Positions 1,264-35,366 of a DNA stretch of 35,366 nt are shown here, one piece after another. Position numbers and translations under genes: made by a program. The DNA comes from a virus. The stretch is from positions 1 to 35,366 of IMG/VR virus record IMGVR_UViG_3300045996_001175. One strand, written 5' to 3'. A model generated the notes under the pieces. The model was not told where the DNA came from and did no database searches. It saw only the letters and a list, made by a program, of their open reading frames with translations. How positions within the stretch are numbered: the first letter of the stretch is position 1; each line of letters starts with the position of its first letter.

Positions 1264-1514
1264 TGGTCGTCATCCTCGCCGGCACACCGTACGAGGGTGA
1301 GGAGTACCGCAAGGTCGCCGGCTTGGCTCTGGCGGATGTGCTGATCCCGAGTTCGCCGTCGGCCTTCTCCGGCCTGGTGCTCCGCGACAGCGACCTGATC
1401 GTCGAGTTCCCCTCGTTCGACGGCCACCCCAAGGCCGGGCAGATGCGCCACCTCCTCAAGCACCGCCTGCAGCGTTGCGGCGCGAACCCGCCCTGGGAGA
1501 GGATCACGGGATGA
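1263..1514 (+). CDS. Small unknown protein preceding the large terminase
   Basis: This 83-residue protein starts at ATG 1263, overlapping the previous TGA. A GTG one codon earlier is an alternative start. It ends at 1514, overlapping the large terminase ATG at 1511 in an ATGA arrangement. It contains a hydrophobic beta/alpha-looking N-terminus (MVVILAGTPYEGEEYRKVAGL), then VEFPSFDGHP and a basic helix (QMRHLLKHRLQRCG). The codon bias is like that of its neighbours. No known domain is recognised. Genes of this size between small and large terminases occur in other actinophages but have no assigned function. Confidence 0.55.
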   Translation: MVVILAGTPYEGEEYRKVAGLALADVLIPSSPSAFSGLVLRDSDLIVEFPSFDGHPKAGQMRHLLKHRLQRCGANPPWERITG

Positions 1515-3469
1515 GCACCGCGGTCGAAGAGCGCACCGACCGCATGACGTGGGAGAACATCCGCGACTTCCAGTTCTATCTCGACATCCCCGAGCCGGTG
1601 CACTACGGGCCCACCTGGCAGATCGACGAGAAGACCGGCAACTTCGTCCAGCCCGAGCACACCCTCGGGTGGCAGATCATCCGCTGGGTTGAGGCCAACC
1701 TCCTCAACGACGAGGGCGCCCCGTTCGTCCTCACGTTCGAGCAGAAGCGTCTGCTCCTGTGGTGGTACGCCGTCGACGAGCGTGGCCGGTTCGTCTACCG
1801 CAAGGGCGTCTTCCAGCGCCTCAAGGGTTGGGGCAAGGACCCACTGGTGGCGGTCATCGCGGCGGTCGAGTTCGTGGGCCCCTGCCGCTTCGCCGGCTGG
1901 CTCGCCAAGGACCGCTCCGACCTCGAGCTCCGGCGCGGTGACCCGCTGGCCAAGCCGAACCCGAAGGCCTGGATCCAGATCGCCGCGGTCTCCAAGGAGC
2001 AGACCAAGAACACGATGAAGATCTTTCCGACGCTGTTCACCGAGGCCTGCAAGCAGCAGCACGGGATCGACATCGGAAAAGAGGTCATCTACGCGTACCA
2101 CGGTGGCCGGACCATCGAAGCTGTCACGAGCGCCCCGGCCACCCTCGAGGGGGCTCGCCCGTCGCTGGTGATCAAGAACGAGACCCACCACTGGAAGGCC
2201 AACAACGAGGGCCACGAGATGGCCGCCGTGATCGGTCGTAACACCGCGAAGTCCAAGGGTGGCGCTGCGCGCACCATCTCGATCACGAACGCCTACGAGC
2301 CCTCCCAGGACTCCGTCGGCCAGCGCGAGCGCGAGGCATGGGAGAACGAGCGCGACGGCCTGAACGTCAAGACCGGCGTGCTCTACGACTCCGTCGAGGC
2401 GCACGAGGACGCCTACATGCGCCTCCCGCGCAAGCCCGACGGCAGCATGCCCACCGACGAGGAGACCCGCGCCTACGTCGGCGCTGTGGTCGACTCGGTG
2501 CGCGGCGACGCCTGGTGGCTCGACGTCGAGTCGATCCTCGGGGAGATCTTCGACGAGGTGAACCCGGTCTCCCAGAGCCGGCGCTTCTACTACAACCAGA
2601 TCGTCAACGCCGAGGATGCATGGCTCGACGCCGGCCTAGTCGGCGGCCGCCTGGTGCACCCACTCGCGAAGCAGTACCGGGCCGAGATCGGGAACGACGA
2701 CCTGCGGGCTGGTTGGCAACTCGTCCTCCCCGAGGACCCCGTGGCGATGTTCTTCGACGGCTCGAAGTCCGACGACGCCACGGCACTCGTGGGGTGCCGG
2801 CTCGACGACGGCTACGTCTTCACCCTCGGCGTCTGGCAGCGGCCACGCGGCGAGCGCGGCAAGCACTGGCTCGTGCCGCGTGAAGAGGTCGACGCCCGCG
2901 TCATCGAGTGCGCCGGCTGGTCCGAGCGTGACATCAAGGGCCGTTTCAACGTCGTCGCCTTCTTCGGTGACCCCTCCCACGCACTCGACGACGAGGACTC
3001 CACCCGGTACTGGGACGGCCTCTTCGACCGCTGGCACCAGCGCTACAAGGACCAGCTTCAGATCTGGGCGACCAAGACAGGCAACCGCCAGCATGCCGTC
3101 ATGTGGGACATGACCTCGCCGTTACACCAGGCCGAGTTTGTCGCGGCCGCCGAGCGCTTCGTCGGCGAGGCCGAGCACCTGAACGACATCGAGGAGTTCG
3201 AGCCCGACTTCCAGATCGACGGCCACCCCGCCCTTGTGCAGCACCTGCGCAACGCGAAGAAGTACCCGACGAAGTACGGCGTCAGTCTTTGGAAGGGCGC
3301 GCGCGAGGCCGAGAAGAAGATCGACCTAGCTGTCGCAGCCGTCGGCGCCCGCATGGTCCGCCGTATGATGACCAACGTCGGTCTCGAGGAGCCGGAGAAG
3401 GGTCCAGCCGAGCTCTGGGGCAAGTGGAGCGGTATGAGTCCCGACCAGTACACGGAGGGTCGGTGGTGA
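1511..3469 (+). CDS. Terminase large subunit
   Basis: This 652-residue protein is the ATPase/nuclease that cuts and pumps DNA into proheads. A Walker A-like KGWGKDPL is near residues 105-112. A Walker B-like SLVIKNETHHW is near 218-228; it keeps the catalytic Glu, with Asn where Asp is usual. The C-terminal RNase H-like nuclease shows FFDGSKSDDATALV with D416, a second acidic region (FFGDPSHALDDEDS) and KIDLAVAAVGA near the end. Length is at the upper end for the family. I chose ATG 1511 because it makes an ATGA overlap with the upstream stop; an in-frame ATG at 1475 lies inside the previous gene. It is followed by a 45-nt gap with a -10-like hexamer before the portal. Confidence 0.95.
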   Translation: MSTAVEERTDRMTWENIRDFQFYLDIPEPVHYGPTWQIDEKTGNFVQPEHTLGWQIIRWVEANLLNDEGAPFVLTFEQKRLLLWWYAVDERGRFVYRKGVFQRLKGWGKDPLVAVIAAVEFVGPCRFAGWLAKDRSDLELRRGDPLAKPNPKAWIQIAAVSKEQTKNTMKIFPTLFTEACKQQHGIDIGKEVIYAYHGGRTIEAVTSAPATLEGARPSLVIKNETHHWKANNEGHEMAAVIGRNTAKSKGGAARTISITNAYEPSQDSVGQREREAWENERDGLNVKTGVLYDSVEAHEDAYMRLPRKPDGSMPTDEETRAYVGAVVDSVRGDAWWLDVESILGEIFDEVNPVSQSRRFYYNQIVNAEDAWLDAGLVGGRLVHPLAKQYRAEIGNDDLRAGWQLVLPEDPVAMFFDGSKSDDATALVGCRLDDGYVFTLGVWQRPRGERGKHWLVPREEVDARVIECAGWSERDIKGRFNVVAFFGDPSHALDDEDSTRYWDGLFDRWHQRYKDQLQIWATKTGNRQHAVMWDMTSPLHQAEFVAAAERFVGEAEHLNDIEEFEPDFQIDGHPALVQHLRNAKKYPTKYGVSLWKGAREAEKKIDLAVAAVGARMVRRMMTNVGLEEPEKGPAELWGKWSGMSPDQYTEGRW

Positions 3470-4971: not shown

Positions 4972-5019
4972 ATGGGCGGCTACGGCCCCGACTGGGACGG
5001 TGACGGGAAGAAGAACTGA
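4972..5019 (+). CDS. Possible micro-ORF or frameshift extension of the portal
   Basis: The portal and MuF-like genes are 79 nt apart, but a -1 frame stays open across the gap and ends in a TGA (5017-5019) overlapping the MuF ATG. The shortest version starts at ATG 4972, after an AGGA, and encodes 15 residues ending in GPDWDGDGKKN. The upstream part of the same frame reads LSEDERKRRNRI and has no ATG, GTG or TTG start. It could therefore be reached only by slippage at CCCTTTC (4900-4906) or by a non-standard start. The stop/start overlap is the main reason for thinking it is translated. It could also be plain spacer. Confidence 0.25.
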   Translation: MGGYGPDWDGDGKKN

Positions 5020-5849
5020 TGGCAGCGCTACCAGGTGACCGACTAACCGCCGCCTACCGCGCGGCCCAGGTACGCAACGCCGCCCTCCTGGCGGCCAAGC
5101 TCCGGCGCCGCTACGCCGCCGTCGACCTGTCGGTGACCGAGTCCCAGCGGGCCTTCCTCGAGCTCGCCACCGGCGACGTCGTCTTCCACCACGCCCGGGC
5201 GACCGACCAGAGCGTTATCTACCTGCGGTCGCTACAAAGCCTTGAGGCCGCCGGCCCCCTGGTTCCCGTCGACGCCGGGCCGCCGCCGAACCTCGAGCAG
5301 ATCCGCCGCTCGCTGGCTGTGATGGGCCCGGTTGCTGGTCGGCAGCGCGTCGCCGAGGTCCAGTCTGACCCCGAGAGCGCGCGTGGGATCGCCGAGCGGA
5401 ATATCGCACAGCGCAAGACCGCAGCCGGTGTCATGGGTGCCGGCATCCGGCACGCCCAGAACGGGGCCCGTGACACGGTTCGCCAGTACGTCGAGAAGGA
5501 CCGACGCGCCCGGGGCTGGGTGCGTGTCACGGCCCAGGATGACCGGGTGTGCGCCTTCTGCGCGATGCTCGCCAGCCGCATCGACTGGAAGGAGGGCAAC
5601 TTCGACGCCTCCGACGCCGAGTTCGTCGGCCCGGGGACGGCTAAGGTCCACGACTCCTGCCGGTGCCACCTGCGTCCGATCTACTCGCGCGAGCTCCCCG
5701 AGGAGACCCTCTTCTACCGCGAGCAGTGGTCGGCGTTGTCGGCCGAGGCCATCGACGGCTCGAACCGTGGGCTCGCCAGGAACTTCCGTTCGCAGTGGGA
5801 GAAGCGACAGCGCGGCCTAGATGCAGGTCAACCGTCGCGGGTTGCGTGA
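5019..5849 (+). CDS. MuF-like minor capsid protein
   Basis: This 276-residue protein lies directly after the portal, the normal place for the MuF/SPP1 gp7 family, which is packaged in the head near the portal. The C-terminal half carries the family's cysteine/histidine signature. VCAFCAML (C178, C181) is followed about 30 residues later by HDSCRCH (H211, C214, C216, H217), probably a metal site. The N-terminal half is helical and Arg/Ala-rich (AALLAAKLRRRYAAVDL). The TGATG overlap at 5017-5021 suggests translational coupling; only a weak GAAGAAG precedes the start. No toxin or ADP-ribosyltransferase domain is fused, unlike some MuF proteins. Confidence 0.88.
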   Translation: MAALPGDRLTAAYRAAQVRNAALLAAKLRRRYAAVDLSVTESQRAFLELATGDVVFHHARATDQSVIYLRSLQSLEAAGPLVPVDAGPPPNLEQIRRSLAVMGPVAGRQRVAEVQSDPESARGIAERNIAQRKTAAGVMGAGIRHAQNGARDTVRQYVEKDRRARGWVRVTAQDDRVCAFCAMLASRIDWKEGNFDASDAEFVGPGTAKVHDSCRCHLRPIYSRELPEETLFYREQWSALSAEAIDGSNRGLARNFRSQWEKRQRGLDAGQPSRVA

Positions 5850-27352: not shown

Positions 27353-28390
27353 ATGTCCGACAACACCGCACCGGTCATCGCCCTGGCTGACCTCGAGGAC
27401 GACGCCGACGACGAGTTCTACCCCTGCGAGGAGACCACCGACCTCGTCGGGATCGCTCGCTTCGGTACCACCAGCCGGCACGTCCTCGCGACTTGGCTCC
27501 CCGCCGCCTTCAGGAAGTGGGGCGTGCGCTTCGCGCTCGTCGAGGGCTGGGAAGACCGCGGCCGCCCGATGTCCACGGGGTACTTCGACCCCAACGCACT
27601 GCTGAACCATCACACCGGGACGACCTCCAGCGAGGAGAAGCCGGCACCGTCCCTGGCGACAGTGGTCAACGGCCGCAGCGACCTCTCCGGCCCGCTGTGC
27701 CAGGTGGCCACCGACTACAACGGCCTGACGTACATCGTCGCCGCCGGCCGGGCCAACCACGCCGGCACCGCCAAGGCCGCCATGGGCAACCCCAGCGGCG
27801 ACGGCAACGCCATGTACATCGGCAACGAGATCATGACCAGTGGCCTGCAGAGGATGCCCAAGGCGCAGTACGACGCCGTCGTGCTCGTCTCCGCGGCCAT
27901 CCTCGACCACTTCGGCTACACCAGCGCCACAAAGGTCGGTCTCCACCACACCACGAGCACCTCCGGCAAGTGGGATCTCGGCGCCGGCACCGGGGCAGTG
28001 GCCCCGTACGATGTCACCAAGCTCCGCACGGACGTTTCCGCACGGCTCGCCGCTGGACCCCCCACCACCACAGAGAAGGACTGGTTCGACATGGCAACGC
28101 TCGCAGACCTCAAGACCGCGCTCAAGGACCCCGAGGTCCTGCGCGAGATCGCCCGGTTCGTCTGGACCGGCTACGCCTTCGGCCCCGAGGGCTCCCAGAA
28201 GGTCCCCGCCGGGTACCTCACCCTGCAGGAGCAACTGACCCGCATCGCCATCCAGGCCGCGAACGACGACCTCACCCCCGAAGAGGTCAAGGCCGCTCTG
28301 GCCGAGGTCGTCACCTCCGGCCTCAAGGTCGAGGGCGAAGTCCACCTCGTGCCGCGGGCTCCCGCGCCCGTAGAGGGGGCCCAGTCGTGA
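27353..28390 (+). CDS. Endolysin, N-acetylmuramoyl-L-alanine amidase
   Basis: This 345-residue protein contains a zinc amidase domain of the amidase_2/PGRP type. NHHTGT (H86/H87) precedes a strand region YIVAAGRANHAG (H136), IGNEIM and then LHHTTSTSGKWDLG (H198/H199 with the Lys-Trp-Asp that follows the last ligand). It cleaves the bond between MurNAc and the stem peptide. The first 65 residues may form a separate small domain. After a Pro/Thr linker (PPTTTEKDWFD) the C-terminal 100 residues are helical and may bind the wall or oligomerise. An in-frame ATG at 28091 after AAGGA could yield this part alone. No signal peptide is present, so release depends on a holin. The stop overlaps the next GTG. 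Confidence 0.9.
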   Translation: MSDNTAPVIALADLEDDADDEFYPCEETTDLVGIARFGTTSRHVLATWLPAAFRKWGVRFALVEGWEDRGRPMSTGYFDPNALLNHHTGTTSSEEKPAPSLATVVNGRSDLSGPLCQVATDYNGLTYIVAAGRANHAGTAKAAMGNPSGDGNAMYIGNEIMTSGLQRMPKAQYDAVVLVSAAILDHFGYTSATKVGLHHTTSTSGKWDLGAGTGAVAPYDVTKLRTDVSARLAAGPPTTTEKDWFDMATLADLKTALKDPEVLREIARFVWTGYAFGPEGSQKVPAGYLTLQEQLTRIAIQAANDDLTPEEVKAALAEVVTSGLKVEGEVHLVPRAPAPVEGAQS

Positions 28391-28839
28391 AGGCACTCGT
28401 CGAGCGGCTCCGGCGCGAGCCAGCCGTCATCCTCACGTTCCTCGTGGCCCTCTTCGGGCTGCTCGCGGCGTTCGGCTTCGACCTGACGAAGGAGCAGACC
28501 GGCTCGATCATCTCGCTCGCCACGGTGATCGTCGGCTTCCTGATCCGCAGCCAGGTCACCCCGACGGTCTCCGTCGGGGCCGCGGAGCAGAACGATGCCC
28601 CTGGTGCGGATCTCGTAGCTGGCCCCGCCTCAGCGCTGCCGAACGAGACCCCTGTCGACGTCGTGCCGGCCGAGGAGGTCTTCGGCGAGGGCACCGACCT
28701 CAGCCGCCTCGCGGGTCGCAGGGACCAGGCACATCACCGCGACGAGCGGGGCGAGCGGGACGTCAACGGCATCCTCCTCACGGTCGTGCTGGTGCTGGTC
28801 GGCCTCGCGGCTTTGGTGTACCTCGTCCGCGTGTTCTGA
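28387..28839 (+). CDS. Holin-like membrane protein
   Basis: This 150-residue protein starts at GTG 28387, overlapping the endolysin TGA. Residues about 13-32 (AVILTFLVALFGLLAAFGF) and 40-54 (SIISLATVIVGFLI) form two membrane helices. This pattern, with a basic N-terminus (VERLRREP), is common in holins beside actinophage endolysins. An unusual long acidic and then His/Arg-rich linker leads to a third helix at 128-148 (GILLTVVLVLVGLAALVYLV). The third helix is outside the usual two-helix model. It could be an antiholin-type or fusion module. The stop overlaps the next ATG. Confidence 0.75.
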   Translation: MKALVERLRREPAVILTFLVALFGLLAAFGFDLTKEQTGSIISLATVIVGFLIRSQVTPTVSVGAAEQNDAPGADLVAGPASALPNETPVDVVPAEEVFGEGTDLSRLAGRRDQAHHRDERGERDVNGILLTVVLVLVGLAALVYLVRVF

Positions 28840-29405
28840 TGCGTCGGCTCGTCCTCGCGGCCCTGTCCGCAGCGGCGCTGGTCCTGGGCTTCGGAGCTCA
28901 GGCCAGCGCCGCGACCTACTACGTCGACCACCCCTTCACGAAGGACTCGATCCCCTACTTCAACGCCACCGGACGCTCCAACGTCCCAGTGGCCGTCGAC
29001 CGCTGGGACGACCTCAGTGGCCTGAACCTGTGGCCCACCACGGCCAACCCGTCGAGCGGCATCGACGTCCGCTGGGGCTCGACCTCGCACCCCTACTACA
29101 ACAAGAAGATCGGTGGCTGGGTCGAGGCGACCTGGGTCTGGTCGAGCGGGCAGTGGGAGATCAAGGACTGCACGGTCTTCGTGAACCGGAAGGTCTATGG
29201 GGCTGGTCAGCCCTACGGCAGGTGGCTCGAGGCCATCGTGTCCCACGAGGTCGGGCACTGTCTCGGTTGGTGGCGGGACGGCATCATCGGCTACCCGTCG
29301 ATCATGCGCTCAGGCCTGAGCAAGTCCGGCACGCTCGCCGGCATCGCCTACCGACCGACGAACGATGACCGACGCAAGATCATCGCTGGGCTGGCCACGA
29401 ACTGA
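28839..29405 (+). CDS. Exported matrixin-like zinc metalloprotease
   Basis: This 188-residue protein has a clear Sec signal peptide (residues 1-24: RR, then a hydrophobic run ending AQASA). The mature part carries HEVGH (136-140) followed by CLGWWRD, and SIM at 154-156 that fits the Met-turn. The closing PTNDDRRKIIAGL matches the end helix of matrixins (P..DD...I..L). In the metzincin pattern HExxHxxGxxH/D the third ligand should be residue 146, here Arg, with Asp at 147. Either the spacing is shifted by one or the site is altered. It would digest proteins outside the membrane, in the cell wall space or medium. It is translationally coupled to the holin-like gene, so it may assist lysis or modify the host surface. 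Confidence 0.8.
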   Translation: MRRLVLAALSAAALVLGFGAQASAATYYVDHPFTKDSIPYFNATGRSNVPVAVDRWDDLSGLNLWPTTANPSSGIDVRWGSTSHPYYNKKIGGWVEATWVWSSGQWEIKDCTVFVNRKVYGAGQPYGRWLEAIVSHEVGHCLGWWRDGIIGYPSIMRSGLSKSGTLAGIAYRPTNDDRRKIIAGLATN

Positions 29406-29417: not shown

Positions 29418-30461
29418 ATGCAACCCATCACCCGCCTCATAGCTGTCCTGCTGAGCAGTTTCGCGCTCATCCTCGGCGGTGCCACGCCCGCCCATGCCCT
29501 CGACGGGCCCGTCCTCCTCGCTGACCACCCCGACATCTCGGACGTCACCGAGAGCAGCAACAACATCCAGGACCTCGGCGTCGAGGGCGACCGGGTCTAC
29601 ATCGGTCACGGCGACTACGGGACCAACACCGGCCCGGTCGCTGTCGCCTGGGCGAACCTCTGGGGCACCGCCATGGGGTCGAACTACAGCTACCCCGGCG
29701 AACAGATCGACACCTTCCGCAACGACGGTGGGCGCCTGCTCATCCCCAACATCGATCCCCGGGGCAGTGGGCCAGGCGGGTACGGAACCACGAGTGGATA
29801 CGTCGCCGCGACGCCACAGGTGCACACTTTCGATGCCACCCGCTTCGCGGGCGCCCTCTACCTCGTCGGGGCAGACTACGACGGCGCAACCAGGGGCGCA
29901 TCGGTCTATCGCTCGGCCGACAACGGTGCCACCTGGAGCCGGGTCCTCGCCGTCACCGACAACCCCTACACCGGGTACGAGCGCTTCTACTACATCGCGA
30001 CCGCGAGCGGCAAGCTGTTCGTCCAGGCGCGCCACAAGGGCTACGACCCGAGCAACCCCATCACCGTCTCCGGCAGTGACTTGTTCCCCCTGATGTCTTC
30101 GAGCGACGGCTTGCGATGGAGCAAGGCGAACAGTCGCGCCAGCCTGGGCCCAATCGGCTCGGGCCATTCGGTGGAGTCCTTCGCCGGCAGGATGTGGAGC
30201 ACCGGCGGCAAGGTCAGTGACGGGAGCCGGGCGGTCGCGAGCGGACTGCCTCACAACGTGCGGGACCTCTTCGTGGCTGGCGACCGGCTCTATGCCATCA
30301 CCATCGACGGCACCGTGCTCTTCACGACCGGATCGACCACCTGGACGGTCCTGCCCGGCAAGGCGGTCCCGGCCGGCGTCAACGCGCTGTCGATAGCCGT
30401 CGCAGGCGGCCGCGTAATCGCCGGAGATGACGCCGGACGGCTCTGGGCCACCACTCTGTAG
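29418..30461 (+). CDS. Exported Asp-box (BNR) beta-propeller protein
   Basis: This 347-residue protein has a signal peptide (1-27, ending PAHA). The rest is a repeated beta pattern. One perfect Asp-box, SADNGATW in YRSADNGATWSRV, is followed by a degenerate one (SSSDGLRWSKA) and weaker repeats (FTTGSTTWTVL, DDAGRLWATTL). This is typical of sialidase-like and other secreted propellers. The sialidase Arg triad cannot be identified by eye, so a glycosidase activity is not supported. It is the last gene of the rightward block and is followed by a strong palindrome. It may bind or modify surface glycans or act in superinfection exclusion; these are guesses. Confidence 0.7.
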   Translation: MQPITRLIAVLLSSFALILGGATPAHALDGPVLLADHPDISDVTESSNNIQDLGVEGDRVYIGHGDYGTNTGPVAVAWANLWGTAMGSNYSYPGEQIDTFRNDGGRLLIPNIDPRGSGPGGYGTTSGYVAATPQVHTFDATRFAGALYLVGADYDGATRGASVYRSADNGATWSRVLAVTDNPYTGYERFYYIATASGKLFVQARHKGYDPSNPITVSGSDLFPLMSSSDGLRWSKANSRASLGPIGSGHSVESFAGRMWSTGGKVSDGSRAVASGLPHNVRDLFVAGDRLYAITIDGTVLFTTGSTTWTVLPGKAVPAGVNALSIAVAGGRVIAGDDAGRLWATTL

Positions 30462-30519: not shown

Positions 30520-30792
30520 TCACTCCTCGGAAGTGCGCTTGACCTTCTTCGCGTCGAGAGGCTTGTCGAGCTTCTTCGCCGCCTCCCAGCGGTACAGGGT
30601 GAGCTCCTCGTCGGGGTCTGCGAAGACCGAGTCGCTGGTCGCGATCACGTCACCGTCGCGCACGAGGCGCACGAGACCGTTGTCGAGGTGCTGGGCCTCG
30701 ACCGGGGGCGTGGCACCGTCGACCTTGACCGAGACGACCTCGTGGCCGCTCGCGCGCTGGACGGCGTACAGGTACTGCTTCTTGCCTGCCAT
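30520..30792 (-). CDS. Small basic/acidic protein downstream of the metacaspase
   Basis: This 90-residue protein starts after GAGAGGA, 12 nt beyond the metacaspase stop, so it is probably the last gene of that operon. It has a beta-like N-terminal half (KKQYLYAVQRASGHEVVSVKVDG, LVRLVRDGDVIATSDS). A charged helix follows (EELTLYRWEAAKKLDKPLDAKKVKRTSEE in pieces). I do not recognise the family. Position makes it a candidate partner or substrate of the metacaspase, which is speculation. Confidence 0.6.
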   Translation of the reverse strand: MAGKKQYLYAVQRASGHEVVSVKVDGATPPVEAQHLDNGLVRLVRDGDVIATSDSVFADPDEELTLYRWEAAKKLDKPLDAKKVKRTSEE

Positions 30793-30804: not shown

Positions 30805-31617
30805 TCAGAAGGTGTAGTAGCGCTGGTAGGGGCGCTCGGTGATCAGTTGCGGCGTCTGGTCGAAGCTGCCGACCAGCGCCCTGATGCTCTTGGCCCAGGA
30901 GGCGTGGGTGGTGGCGGTGTCGGGGAGGCCGTCGATGGCGGCCCGGGTGAACGCCCCGTTGAAGCGCCGGGTGTCGGGGAAGTAGGCGTCCCAGGCGACC
31001 TCGGGCTCGGCACAGGCGGTGTGCCAGATGACCTTGCCCGGCAGCCGAAGCTTCGGGAGGGCCTTCGCCCATTCGCTGACCGCCGGGCTGGCGTTGACGA
31101 GGCGCTGCTGCGCCCTGGTGAGCTCCATCGCCTTGTGCGGGGGGATGAACCGCGAGAAGCGGGGCCAGCGGGGAGCCTCCAGTAGCTTGGCCATCCCACC
31201 GGAGTAGCAGGAGTCGGCCAGCCAGATGGCCTGGGAGCCCCAGGCACGCCTGCCGAGCCGCTGGGCGACGGTGTCGTCGAGGATGAGGCCAGCGGTCTGG
31301 AAGTCGTCGGGGCAGATGGCCTCGTCGCGCCGGTCCTGCTCGCCCACAGCGGAGGCGTTGGGGACGTAGGTGCCATGGGTGCTGTTGGTGACGACGATCC
31401 GGTCGCCCCACCTGGTCTTGGCCACGATCTCGTCGATGGCCTCCTCGATGTTGGCCTTGGATGCGTCGGTGCCGAGAAGCTGGGTGACGAAGGCGCCGCG
31501 CCGGGTGAGGGCGTCGGTCCAGTCACGGGCGTCGTTCTCGCAGCCGAAGAGCTCGTAGTCGGAGCCCCTGTAGTTGGTGCCGAAGCACAGTGCTCGGGTG
31601 GTCATCATGGGTCTCAT
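30805..31617 (-). CDS. Metacaspase (caspase-like C14 cysteine protease)
   Basis: This 270-residue protein has the full order of metacaspase/orthocaspase landmarks. ALCFGTNY (strand 1) leads to LFGCENDARDW and a helix, then DRIVVTNSTHGT with catalytic H81. DEAICPDDF, GLILDDTV and the active-site IWLADSCYSGG with C137 follow, and ACAEPEVAWDA and NGAFTRAAIDGL come in the small-subunit part. Family members cleave after Arg or Lys and act on cytoplasmic proteins. There is no signal peptide or repeat domain. The start at 31617 is fixed by an ATGA overlap with the upstream gene and a GGGAG site; a longer frame exists but is antisupported by the coupling. It sits in an operon with an endonuclease VII and a mini zinc protein, not among head genes, so a capsid-maturation role is unlikely but not excluded. 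Confidence 0.85.
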   Translation of the reverse strand: MRPMMTTRALCFGTNYRGSDYELFGCENDARDWTDALTRRGAFVTQLLGTDASKANIEEAIDEIVAKTRWGDRIVVTNSTHGTYVPNASAVGEQDRRDEAICPDDFQTAGLILDDTVAQRLGRRAWGSQAIWLADSCYSGGMAKLLEAPRWPRFSRFIPPHKAMELTRAQQRLVNASPAVSEWAKALPKLRLPGKVIWHTACAEPEVAWDAYFPDTRRFNGAFTRAAIDGLPDTATTHASWAKSIRALVGSFDQTPQLITERPYQRYYTF

Positions 31618-31817
31618 CTTATCTCCCGGGGTTTCGTGGCTTGGCTGGTGAAGTGCCAGTGGTCGCCGCACTCGTAGACGCGCTGGGGCTTGTGGCCGGA
31701 GTGGCCGGCCCGTCGGCGCGTGCCGGTCGTGCGGAGGTCGTCGACGGCCTGCTGGGCGGCCTCCTGCGTGTCGTAGCAGGTCTTGAGCCGGCCGGAAGCA
31801 GCACAGAGCCTGGCCAT
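31614..31817 (-). CDS. Mini zinc-ribbon-like protein
   Basis: This 67-residue protein starts at ATG 31817, overlapping the endonuclease VII stop, and ends in a TGA overlapping the metacaspase ATG. A helix (YDTQEAAQQAVDDLRTTG) is followed by a basic stretch with two His and then VYECGDHWHFTS. That ending matches short actinophage proteins with a C..C/H-type terminal knuckle (YxCxxCxxWHLTS in relatives). One of the usual Cys pair is His here. Cys residues at the N-terminus (RLCAASGRLKTCYD) may complete a metal site. Tight coupling suggests it is made together with the metacaspase. The function of the family is unknown. Confidence 0.65.
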   Translation of the reverse strand: MARLCAASGRLKTCYDTQEAAQQAVDDLRTTGTRRRAGHSGHKPQRVYECGDHWHFTSQATKPREIR

Positions 31818-32737
31818 CAGAACCCCGCGAAGGGGTCGTCGGCCTGCGCGCGCGTGCGGGTGACCTGGCTGCGCTGGTCGATGGTGACGGGCTCCTCGCC
31901 GGCCTGCATCCGCTCGAGCGGGGTCTTGGTGACGTACTCGAGAGCTCGCCTGGCCATGGCCGGGCTGTTGAGCAGCCGGCGCAGGGTCATGTTGCACCCC
32001 CACTCGTCGCTGGCGCAGAGGAGGCCGCGAACGAGCATCGTGCGGTGGTCGTGGTCGACGGCCAGGCGCTTCTTGTGGGGAAGCTGCTGGCAGATGTAGC
32101 AGCGGCCCTTCTGCCACGCCAGGAGGGCCTCATAGTCCTCCCGGGTGAAGTCGTACAGGCGCTTCGTCAGGGACGCGTGAGCGGCCCGCGACGCGTGCGC
32201 CTTGCAGCGGCTGCCGGTGCAGTAGAAGACCGGGATCATCGTCTGACACTCGGAGCACCAGCGGGTGCCCTCGAGCCACTCAGCCTGGGGGACGCGAGCT
32301 CGGTAGGCGTACCCCTCGGCGCGCTCCGCGATCCCGCGGCGCTGGTCGGCCCACTCGGTCTGGAGCTCGATGGGCTGACCCTCGAGCCAGTGCCACATGC
32401 AGGAGCGCTTCCCCTCGAGGAGGGGCCGCAGGCAGGGTGTCGTGAGCGGTTCCTGAACGCCGATCTCGACCGGCTTGCGGCACTTGCCCTTCATGTTGGC
32501 GCCGCGGGCTTGCTTCTCCGGCTCGACATAGTCGCCGAGTTCGACCTGACCACGGCTCGCGAGGGCGGCGTTGAGGCGATCCCACTGGGGGCGGGTGAGC
32601 TTCCACTCGGAGATGAGGACGGCCGGGCGCAGCATTCGCAGGCGGGCGGTGTCTTGGAAGTTCTCGATGAGCTTCTTGTGCAGCGGCGCCGGGAGGTGTA
32701 GGTCCTCGAGCGGGATCGGTTGCTTTGAGCGGGCCAT
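31817..32737 (-). CDS. Endonuclease VII-like HNH/His-Me nuclease with extra zinc clusters
   Basis: This 306-residue protein has a C-terminal recombination endonuclease VII core. GRCYICQQL (C213, C216) precedes LAVDHDHRTMLVRGLLC (D228-H231, C241), and GCNMTLRRL (C248, N249) follows. T4 endonuclease VII resolves branched DNA, and phage relatives debranch before packaging. The N-terminal 210 residues are not part of that core. They have a Cys/His group (C86, C102, C113, H116) and a second one, WCSEC then YCTGSRCKAH (C161, C164, C173, C178, H181), probably additional zinc sites. It is longer than most stand-alone relatives. Coupled TGATG overlaps join it to genes on both sides. Confidence 0.82.
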   Translation of the reverse strand: MARSKQPIPLEDLHLPAPLHKKLIENFQDTARLRMLRPAVLISEWKLTRPQWDRLNAALASRGQVELGDYVEPEKQARGANMKGKCRKPVEIGVQEPLTTPCLRPLLEGKRSCMWHWLEGQPIELQTEWADQRRGIAERAEGYAYRARVPQAEWLEGTRWCSECQTMIPVFYCTGSRCKAHASRAAHASLTKRLYDFTREDYEALLAWQKGRCYICQQLPHKKRLAVDHDHRTMLVRGLLCASDEWGCNMTLRRLLNSPAMARRALEYVTKTPLERMQAGEEPVTIDQRSQVTRTRAQADDPFAGF

Positions 32738-33416: not shown

Positions 33417-33956
33417 TCAGTAGCACTTGCGGGCGTAGTACGCCCTGGCGGTCTCGACGGCCTGGACCGCGACGTCGAAGCGGTTTGTGGTACAGCCGAT
33501 GTTCTTCTCGGCGATCTTGCGGCCCCACTTGTCGAAGACCTTGACGATGGCGGTGACCTTGTAGCTGCCCGACTGCAGGCGCAGACAGTCAGCGTCGTAC
33601 CAGAACGGCGTCGTCTGGCCCGGGTACACGGTTCGGATGTTGCCCGAGCAGTTGCCGGCCTTGAACCGCGTGGTGGTGTAGCGGTTGTCGTACGAGCGCA
33701 CGGTGGAGCTCGACGTCGACGAGTTGCTGATCTTGCCGACGACGATGTCAGCGTCGAGGCCCTGGGCGCCACCGGGATCGGTGTAGTTGTCCCACTCGGT
33801 GCCCTCGGGCGGGTCGGCCAGGTTGCCCGAGCCGTCGGTCTCGCCGGGCTCGACCTCAGCCACGATGGCGGTGGGCGCGGCGGCGGTGGCCGTCGTGCTG
33901 AGGCCGAGGATGAGTGCGAGCGCGGCGATGATGCTGGCGATGATGCTCTTGTGCAT
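33417..33956 (-). CDS. Exported cysteine-containing protein, unknown
   Basis: This 179-residue protein starts after AAGGGAGA. It has a Sec signal peptide (1-26, IIASIIAALALILGLSTTATA in pieces). The mature chain begins with an acidic, Pro/Gly-rich segment. A beta-rich domain with four cysteines (GNCSGNIRT, DADCLRLQ, NIGCTTNRF and the terminal RKCY) follows, suited to two disulfides. No enzyme motif is visible. Being exported but carried in the leftward, presumably early-expressed block, it may alter the host surface. The family is not recognised. Confidence 0.65.
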   Translation of the reverse strand: MHKSIIASIIAALALILGLSTTATAAAPTAIVAEVEPGETDGSGNLADPPEGTEWDNYTDPGGAQGLDADIVVGKISNSSTSSSTVRSYDNRYTTTRFKAGNCSGNIRTVYPGQTTPFWYDADCLRLQSGSYKVTAIVKVFDKWGRKIAEKNIGCTTNRFDVAVQAVETARAYYARKCY

Positions 33957-34721: not shown

Positions 34722-34749
34722 ATCGTAGCACAAGTCACTGACTACGCAA
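34722..34749 (-). promoter_or_regulatory. Putative promoter of the SSB-like gene and downstream operon
   Basis: On the minus strand TTGCGT (34749-34744) is followed by a 16-nt spacer and TGC-TACGAT (hexamer 34727-34722). This is an extended -10 promoter with a recognisable -35, the best sigma-70-type match in the window. The predicted start lies near 34715 and gives a leader of about 60 nt before ATG 34656. Confidence 0.55.
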
Positions 34750-35366
34750 GGGCACCGATGATCTCGATGGCGAGCTTCGTGTGCTCGTCGGACCAAGCGT
34801 AGAGATTGAGTTCGCGAATCGCGAGAAGCTCCTCACGGGAGCCGGCGTTCATGACCTGCTCGCCGAGCATCTCCTGCTCGGCTTGGTGGGCCGCGAGGAT
34901 CTTGTCGTTGACGTTGCGCTCGACCTTGAACTTGCCGGCGGCGTGTCCGTCGCGGACCTGGCCGGCGATCTCAGCCATCTCGAGACCCCAGCGCAGGTCG
35001 ACCTGGTGGAACTCGGTCGTGCCCTTGCCGGCTGAGATGTCGATCACGAAGGCGACGTCGGCCGAGAGGTCCTCGTCCCACGGTGTGCGAGTGTCGTTCT
35101 CCCAGTCGTAACGCTCACCGAACCGGTAGATGGCGAACTGCACGGCGTGCTCAAGCTGCCGGAGCTCGCCGGTCTTCTTGTCGCCGAGCACCTTGCCGAA
35201 GCCTGGGACATAGAGGACATGGTCGACGGTGCCGGCGCCCTTGAGGCGGTCGTTGGCGGTGAAGACCTCAGTGTCGAGGATCTTGACGCCGAGGCGCTCC
35301 ATCGTCACGGCGAAGCTCTCGACGTCGGGCTTCATCCGCTCGGGGATGTGGGAGCGGTCACCGTTG
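34742..35366 (-). CDS. Cas4/RecB-like PD-(D/E)XK nuclease, 5' end outside window
   Basis: The frame stays open to the window edge (reading NGDRSHIPERMKPDVESF), so the ATG at 35335 is internal and the N-terminus lies beyond. The visible 207 residues show the nuclease core. GTVDHVLYVPG holds the first metal Asp. VLGDKKTGE gives the D-x-K motif, and LEHAVQFAIYRF gives the Q-x3-Y motif of the RecB/Cas4 group. An acidic segment and a helical C-terminus follow. Such phage enzymes act as DNA exonucleases in recombination or end processing. An SSB-like gene next to it supports that role. No cysteine cluster for an iron-sulfur centre is seen in the visible part; it could be in the missing N-terminus. 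Confidence 0.8.
   Translation of the reverse strand, partial: NGDRSHIPERMKPDVESFAVTMERLGVKILDTEVFTANDRLKGAGTVDHVLYVPGFGKVLGDKKTGELRQLEHAVQFAIYRFGERYDWENDTRTPWDEDLSADVAFVIDISAGKGTTEFHQVDLRWGLEMAEIAGQVRDGHAAGKFKVERNVNDKILAAHQAEQEMLGEQVMNAGSREELLAIRELNLYAWSDEHTKLAIEIIGALA

Follow-up and report, generated by a model that had tools for sequence, protein, structure and literature searches.

Metacaspases, protein-cutting enzymes of plants, fungi and bacteria, are discussed as host cell-death enzymes. The presence of a gene for such an enzyme in a stretch of tailed-phage DNA raises the question of whether the gene truly belongs to the phage, whether its product is likely to be a working protease and, if so, what use a phage would have for it. 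The DNA in question, referred to here as the window, is a 35,366-base IMG/VR virus record that is classed as linear and is probably a fragment.

The gene and its phage setting

The window encodes terminase, portal, head protease, major head, major tail and tape-measure genes, and its terminase is 40-42% identical to the terminases of Microbacterium, Bifidobacterium and Streptomyces phages. Judged by this gene content, the window is assigned to an actinobacterial siphophage. A megablast search of the window against phages returned no match. The features on which the following account depends are these:

1511..3469, plus strand: terminase large subunit, which with the structural genes indicates a tailed phage of actinobacteria
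5019-5849: head maturation protease
27353..28390, plus strand: endolysin (Amidase_2; Pfam and PHROGs), in a lysis module convergent to the metacaspase and 2.4 kb away
28387..28839, plus strand: holin (phrog_9752; PHROGs)
30520..30792, minus strand: 90-aa ORF directly downstream of the metacaspase, with its own Shine-Dalgarno sequence GAGAGG; a possible operon partner
30805..31617, minus strand: metacaspase gene, 270 aa, with ATG at 31617 (from motifs, Pfam, PDB relatives and predicted fold)
31608, minus strand: alternative metacaspase start ATG, also possible
31614..31817, minus strand: 67-aa Cys/His-rich ORF directly upstream of the metacaspase
31623..31627, minus strand: GGGAG, a likely ribosome-binding site 5 nt ahead of the metacaspase ATG, as read from the sequence
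31817..32737, minus strand: endonuclease VII (EndoVII), in the operon of the metacaspase
34742..35365, minus strand: phage exonuclease (phrog_466), which opens the DNA-metabolism operon and runs off the window

On the minus strand, the gene order is exonuclease, phrog_1911 protein, EndoVII, 67-aa ORF, metacaspase and 90-aa ORF. The metacaspase start codon and the stop codon of the preceding 67-aa ORF overlap as ATGA, and the GC3 of the metacaspase gene is 0.94, compared to 0.85-0.94 in the surrounding phage genes. Given the flanking phage genes, this overlap and the matching GC3, the metacaspase belongs to the phage. Host contamination and mis-assembly were considered as sources of the gene, and are ruled out by the matching composition and the gene overlaps.

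The initial annotation of the locus had placed a metacaspase with an intact catalytic dyad at 30805-31617, without stating the strand. The coordinates are exact and the strand is minus, as the plus-strand reading of the same interval is interrupted by a stop. The six motifs named in that annotation are all present, and in order, in the 270-aa translation: THGT (starting at residue 80), DEAICPDD (98), LILDD (111), DSCYSGG (135), ACAEPEVAW (201) and NGAFT (220). The dyad residues H81 and C137 are as named there, and they stand in the sequence context of metacaspases (MEROPS C14B), HG ... D(S/A)C(H/Y)SG.

The annotation had proposed a profile search and a structure comparison as checks, and both point to the same family. 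The protein scores 54.2 bits on Pfam Peptidase_C14 (E 2e-14), where the cut-off is 21.4. A phmmer search against solved structures found Arabidopsis metacaspase-4 (AtMC4) as the best match (1.4e-12), along with GSU0716 and metacaspases from yeast and trypanosomes, and a profile built from 14 relatives reached 9e-59 on GSU0716 and 5e-55 on AtMC4. An AlphaFold2 model, built from 64 aligned sequences, has a pLDDT of 87 and a pTM of 0.87; its sole stretch of at least three residues with pLDDT below 50 is 141-147, directly after the catalytic Cys. In a comparison made at the level of the fold, the top Foldseek matches of the model in the PDB are AtMC4, AtMC9 and GSU0716, with E values from 3e-19 (AtMC4) to 2e-17. 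Both the model and the Foldseek matches indicate a p20 followed by a p10 in a caspase-hemoglobinase fold, and the p10 motifs C202, G221-T224 and Q254-P256 are present and conserved. The N-terminal prodomain that is characteristic of type I metacaspases is absent, given that the catalytic domain begins at most 10 residues from the start codon. At the level of sequence and predicted structure, the gene is confirmed as that of a full-length, phage-encoded, free-standing metacaspase without a recruitment domain, with the intact dyad that the annotation had described.

The absence of a recruitment domain had led to the expectation that a partner is encoded nearby. This is unproven: the 90-aa downstream ORF, a possible candidate for such a partner, has no detectable homologue among deposited phages. 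PADLOC, run on the metacaspase and five genes around it, found no defence neighbour (gasdermin, TPR-CHAT/Cas or sensor), and its single match was a weak 'caspase' on the metacaspase itself (E 1e-4). Elsewhere in the window, signal-peptide-like N-termini without a convincing PHROGs match are encoded at 28839-29405 (plus strand), 29418-30461 (plus strand) and 33417-33956 (minus strand); the first two of these secreted-looking products come after the holin.

Catalytic residues, S1 pocket and calcium site

The residues that bear on activity and specificity are encoded as follows, with assignments by alignment and, for the dyad, also by motif:

31531..31533, minus strand: codon of D29, which aligns with S1-pocket Asp95 of TbMCA2
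31375..31377, minus strand: codon of catalytic H81
31213..31215, minus strand: codon of D135, which aligns with S1-pocket Asp211 of TbMCA2
31207..31209, minus strand: codon of catalytic C137
31186..31188, minus strand: codon of K144, at Cys +7, the position of the eukaryotic Ca2+ ligand Asp220

Conservation was assessed in an alignment of 134 sequences, 54 viral (the window included) and 80 genomic. H81, C137, D29 and D135 are invariant throughout the alignment, and C26 and S79 are nearly so. The S1 pocket of TbMCA2 includes Cys92, Asp95, Ser156 and Asp211 (PMC4357240), with which C26, D29, S79 and D135 of the phage protein align. Given this correspondence, Arg/Lys specificity is expected; D29, C26, S79 and D135 would form an acidic P1 pocket, and cleavage would occur after Arg or Lys.

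The calcium site may differ. The Ca2+ ligands of TbMCA2 are D173, D189, D190 and D220 (PMC4357240). The first three positions are kept in the phage protein as D98, D114 and D115, and the fourth, at Cys +7, is K144. Lys or Arg occupies this position in 134 of the 134 aligned sequences, and Asp occupies it in Candida MCA-I, Yca1 and AtMC4. With K144 at the fourth ligand position, calcium dependence may differ, and calcium control of the phage metacaspase is probably altered. Lys or Arg at this position runs throughout the sampled bacterial and phage group and is also found in GSU0716, and it could serve as an easily read marker of metacaspases that may not depend on calcium.

The viral sequences in which the dyad and pocket are invariant are nearly all less than 70% identical to each other, and dN/dS is 0.05-0.06 in one trio of related phage copies. 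The invariance of these residues and the low dN/dS predict a working Arg/Lys protease rather than a decoy. Taken with the sequence, the predicted fold and the operon context, this conservation indicates a phage metacaspase that is catalytically competent, cytosolic and prodomain-less.

Relatives in uncultured viruses and their neighbourhoods

Among deposited phages, such genes are nearly absent. A tblastn search with four metacaspase queries against 50,697 deposited phage records gave one match, LR745208, an uncultured 485-kb phage, and the window metacaspase has no match in PHROGs. In the viral structure library BFVD, giant viruses and an ascovirus account for the named matches at E<=0.001, all of them eukaryotic viruses; one further entry carries no name, and no named phage entry is among the matches. 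No paper describing a phage metacaspase was found in the open-access literature, and Table 1 of PMC4357240 appears to mark metacaspases as absent from viruses and animals.

In IMG/VR, alignment-based scans found 14, 50, 29 and 74 loci, in overlapping sets. Of the 54 viral sequences analysed, with the window among them, 53 have a gene call, and these fall into 51 clusters at 70% identity; later scans add 25 clusters, for about 75 sequence-distinct viral relatives overall. Single-protein scans of viral contigs with the window metacaspase (P0001), EndoVII and exonuclease found no close relative. The rarity of free-standing metacaspases in phages, as first proposed, thus holds for the deposited records but not for the uncultured phages of IMG/VR, in which the gene is recurrent. 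The enzyme class itself is known; within the reach of the searches made here, there is no description of phage-borne lineages whose members are stand-alone and apparently active.

A quick tree was built from 96 sequences; on it, the distribution of virus and cell labels takes 4 changes, compared to 30.5 in shuffles, so viral copies mostly group with viral copies, with a separation that may be exaggerated because the genomic side was sampled from the best 80 loci only. The window groups with L026, L009, L027, L033, L031 and L043, with weak support and on a long branch.

The direct neighbours of the metacaspase in viral contigs include endolysins of the GH25, M15, muramidase, phage lysozyme, NlpC/P60 and amidase types. 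Whole contigs that carry the metacaspase yielded 14 Pfam endolysin domains above cut-off, of which 8 are at most 1.5 kb away from it. Chance would give 0.88, and in 200,000 random placements a count of 8 never arose. The figure of 8 of 14 is inflated: Amidase_2 was set beforehand, but five of the six families were picked after they had been sighted among the neighbours. If one near instance is removed for each post hoc family and three later families are added, 3 of 11 are near (roughly p=0.03, calculated by hand). Of the later families, CHAP and M15_3 gave one distant match each and no near ones, and GH19 had no match in the viral contigs, nor in any control genome. The terminase, used as a control, lies within 1.5 kb in 2 of 6 (p=0.1) and within 3 kb in 4 of 6 (p=0.012), such that the endolysin signal may partly reflect a location in the late region. 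PHROGs endolysins adjoin the metacaspase in L026 and L043, both of which group with the window in the tree.

Genes for small membrane proteins are also enriched one or two genes to either side of the metacaspase (37/179 versus 93/854, p=7e-4). The same measure, fixed before a second sample was taken, was applied to fresh contigs and gave 15/98 versus 18/393 (p=5e-4); since gene calls and membrane segments came from the author's own scripts, the effect sizes of the enrichment are approximate. An excess of lipoproteins (Rz1-like) at position -1 was seen in the first sample (p=1e-3) and did not replicate in the fresh one. Many viral relatives have no adjoining lysis gene, and all of these statistics concern relatives: the lysis genes of the window itself lie 2.4 kb from its metacaspase, on the opposite strand and in a separate operon.

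Another setting recurs in one clade. ClpS is encoded one to three genes downstream of the metacaspase in eight contigs (L178, L179, L180, L193, L204, L203, L181 and L190), and Hsp20 is the next downstream gene in all of these except L190. Where a ClpS contig extends far enough and the gene was called, ClpX-like and YkuD-like genes are found upstream. Pfam was run on representatives of this clade only. The regions concerned include:

L178, 3501-9169
L181, 6433-10572
L190, 3975-9335
L203, 4119-9790

The metacaspase, Hsp20, ClpS, ClpX-like and YkuD-like genes may possibly constitute a phage protein-degradation module. A protease that exposes new N-termini, encoded beside the N-degron adaptor ClpS, makes coupled degradation of host proteins a hypothesis for this clade.

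Single neighbours of viral metacaspases include one with an Acb2/Tad1 hairpin domain, which is an anti-defence domain, and one with an ADP-ribosyltransferase domain. A protein with a lipoprotein-like N-terminus is encoded immediately upstream of the metacaspase in L023 (6932-7999) and L024 (2880-4013), and two scanned neighbours that match Patatin are probably these upstream proteins.

Possible roles and known counterparts

The initial annotation had offered cleavage of host defence proteins, action as a decoy, killing of the cell on superinfection and processing of a phage protein as roles. The context of the relatives points instead to lysis genes, joined in one clade by Clp-type protein degradation, and not to a defence system. 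The best-supported role, favoured here although it falls somewhat short of an even chance, is that of a late-infection cytosolic protease that serves lysis or host shutdown and takeover. By homology, the H81-C137 dyad would cut after Arg or Lys; the enzyme would act in later infection on host proteins, phage proteins or both; and, as the neighbourhoods of relatives suggest, such cleavage would support host shutdown and lysis. In the window, the metacaspase runs in the same direction as the exonuclease and EndoVII and towards the lysis genes, an arrangement that does not require it to be a late gene. A rather unlikely reading is that phages have long-standing metacaspase lineages of their own within the host-killing programme, in which cleavage of a holin-like or host protein would set off or time lysis, as a viral counterpart of caspase-gasdermin cell death, and of which one clade would feed cut proteins with new N-termini to a phage-encoded ClpS/Clp route.

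The location of the window gene in a DNA-metabolism operon, a common site of accessory genes, would suit a counter-defence protease that is made early and shields the phage by cutting a host immune protein, which might be a sensor, an effector or a partner of gasdermin. The metacaspase family is very diverse, as arms-race genes are, and the relative with the Acb2/Tad1 neighbour fits as well. Given that no defence or anti-defence neighbour recurs across the surveyed loci and that one phage trio is under purifying selection, counter-defence is judged possible but doubtful. The TIR, patatin and giant-protein genes around chromosomal relatives resemble conflict systems, which might suggest that the protease kills or arrests the cell on the arrival of a second phage, or protects a lysogen. 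Such exclusion of competitors is improbable, as the metacaspase is free-standing, without a sensor or partner domain, and the genes examined in the window, itself a fragment, include no recognisable integrase or repressor.

Processing of a structural or lysis protein of the phage is supported by the portal, terminase, baseplate or tail genes that adjoin some relatives, and has a similarly small probability: a separate head maturation protease is already encoded by the phage, and no structural gene adjoins the metacaspase in the window. Phages do use inactive mimics elsewhere, but a decoy or binding protein without an enzymatic role is very hard to reconcile with a dyad and S1 pocket that are invariant in 54 of 54 viral relatives analysed, and the decoy idea is strongly disfavoured.

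The viral metacaspases in the structure library searched are only those of eukaryotic giant viruses and their relatives. A conserved, apparently active version in tailed phages, recurrent in viromes, would give phages a part in the caspase-type proteolysis of bacteria, and its repeated placement beside membrane-protein and lysis genes or Hsp20/ClpS/ClpX is part of that significance. The phage gene also provides a straightforward way to test at the bench how a minimal stand-alone metacaspase acts inside bacteria.

Of the solved structures, GSU0716 from Geobacter (PDB 3bij) is a close parallel: it is a single domain with about 26% identity, the same motif order and Lys at catalytic Cys +7. However, GSU0716 is chromosomal and uncharacterised, whereas the window gene sits in a phage operon. 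Stand-alone metacaspases encoded on the chromosomes of Rhodocyclales, Planctomycetota and Dactylosporangium share all key residues at no more than 39% full-length identity; unlike the window gene, many Rhodocyclales-type copies lie directly upstream of a gene for a 1,785-1,984-aa protein. On bacterial chromosomes, the closest relatives (L061, L062, L064, L066, L074, L077, L092, L109 and L136) are encoded directly upstream of a protein of about 1,800-2,000 aa. Some of these loci have TIR-, patatin- or GH19-like genes nearby, as judged by eye, and in L092 there is a tail-sheath (contractile injection) gene cluster as well. A plasmid-borne example is found on pCYAN10605.01 of Cyanobacterium aponinum (63 kb, NC_019777.1; L005/L007), where a stand-alone metacaspase at 49834-50670 is overlapped by a 65-aa ORF, with a type III-B CRISPR locus and a gene for a glycoside hydrolase (peptidoglycan) in its vicinity.

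The cyanobacterial orthocaspase MaOC1 is prokaryotic, Arg-directed and reportedly calcium-independent (PMC7475262). Cyanobacterial homologues of the MaOC1 type are described as lacking a p10-like subdomain, whereas the phage protein has a p10. The Arabidopsis type II metacaspases 4 and 9, the top Foldseek matches, have the dyad and acidic S1 residues in common with the phage protein, but are longer, with a long p20-p10 linker, and AtMC4 has Asp rather than Lys at the fourth Ca2+ ligand position. The type I enzymes TbMCA2, Yca1 and Candida glabrata MCA-I have the same p20-p10 order and corresponding S1 residues (PMC4357240), but carry an N-terminal prodomain and a four-Asp Ca2+ site; in the phage protein the prodomain is absent and K144 stands where Asp220 would be. 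The metacaspases of giant viruses (Fadolivirus, Yasminevirus, Clandestinovirus and medusavirus) are likewise virus-borne and give the best BFVD matches, but they come from viruses with eukaryotic hosts, and their sequence identity to the phage protein is low, at 21-31% for these best matches.
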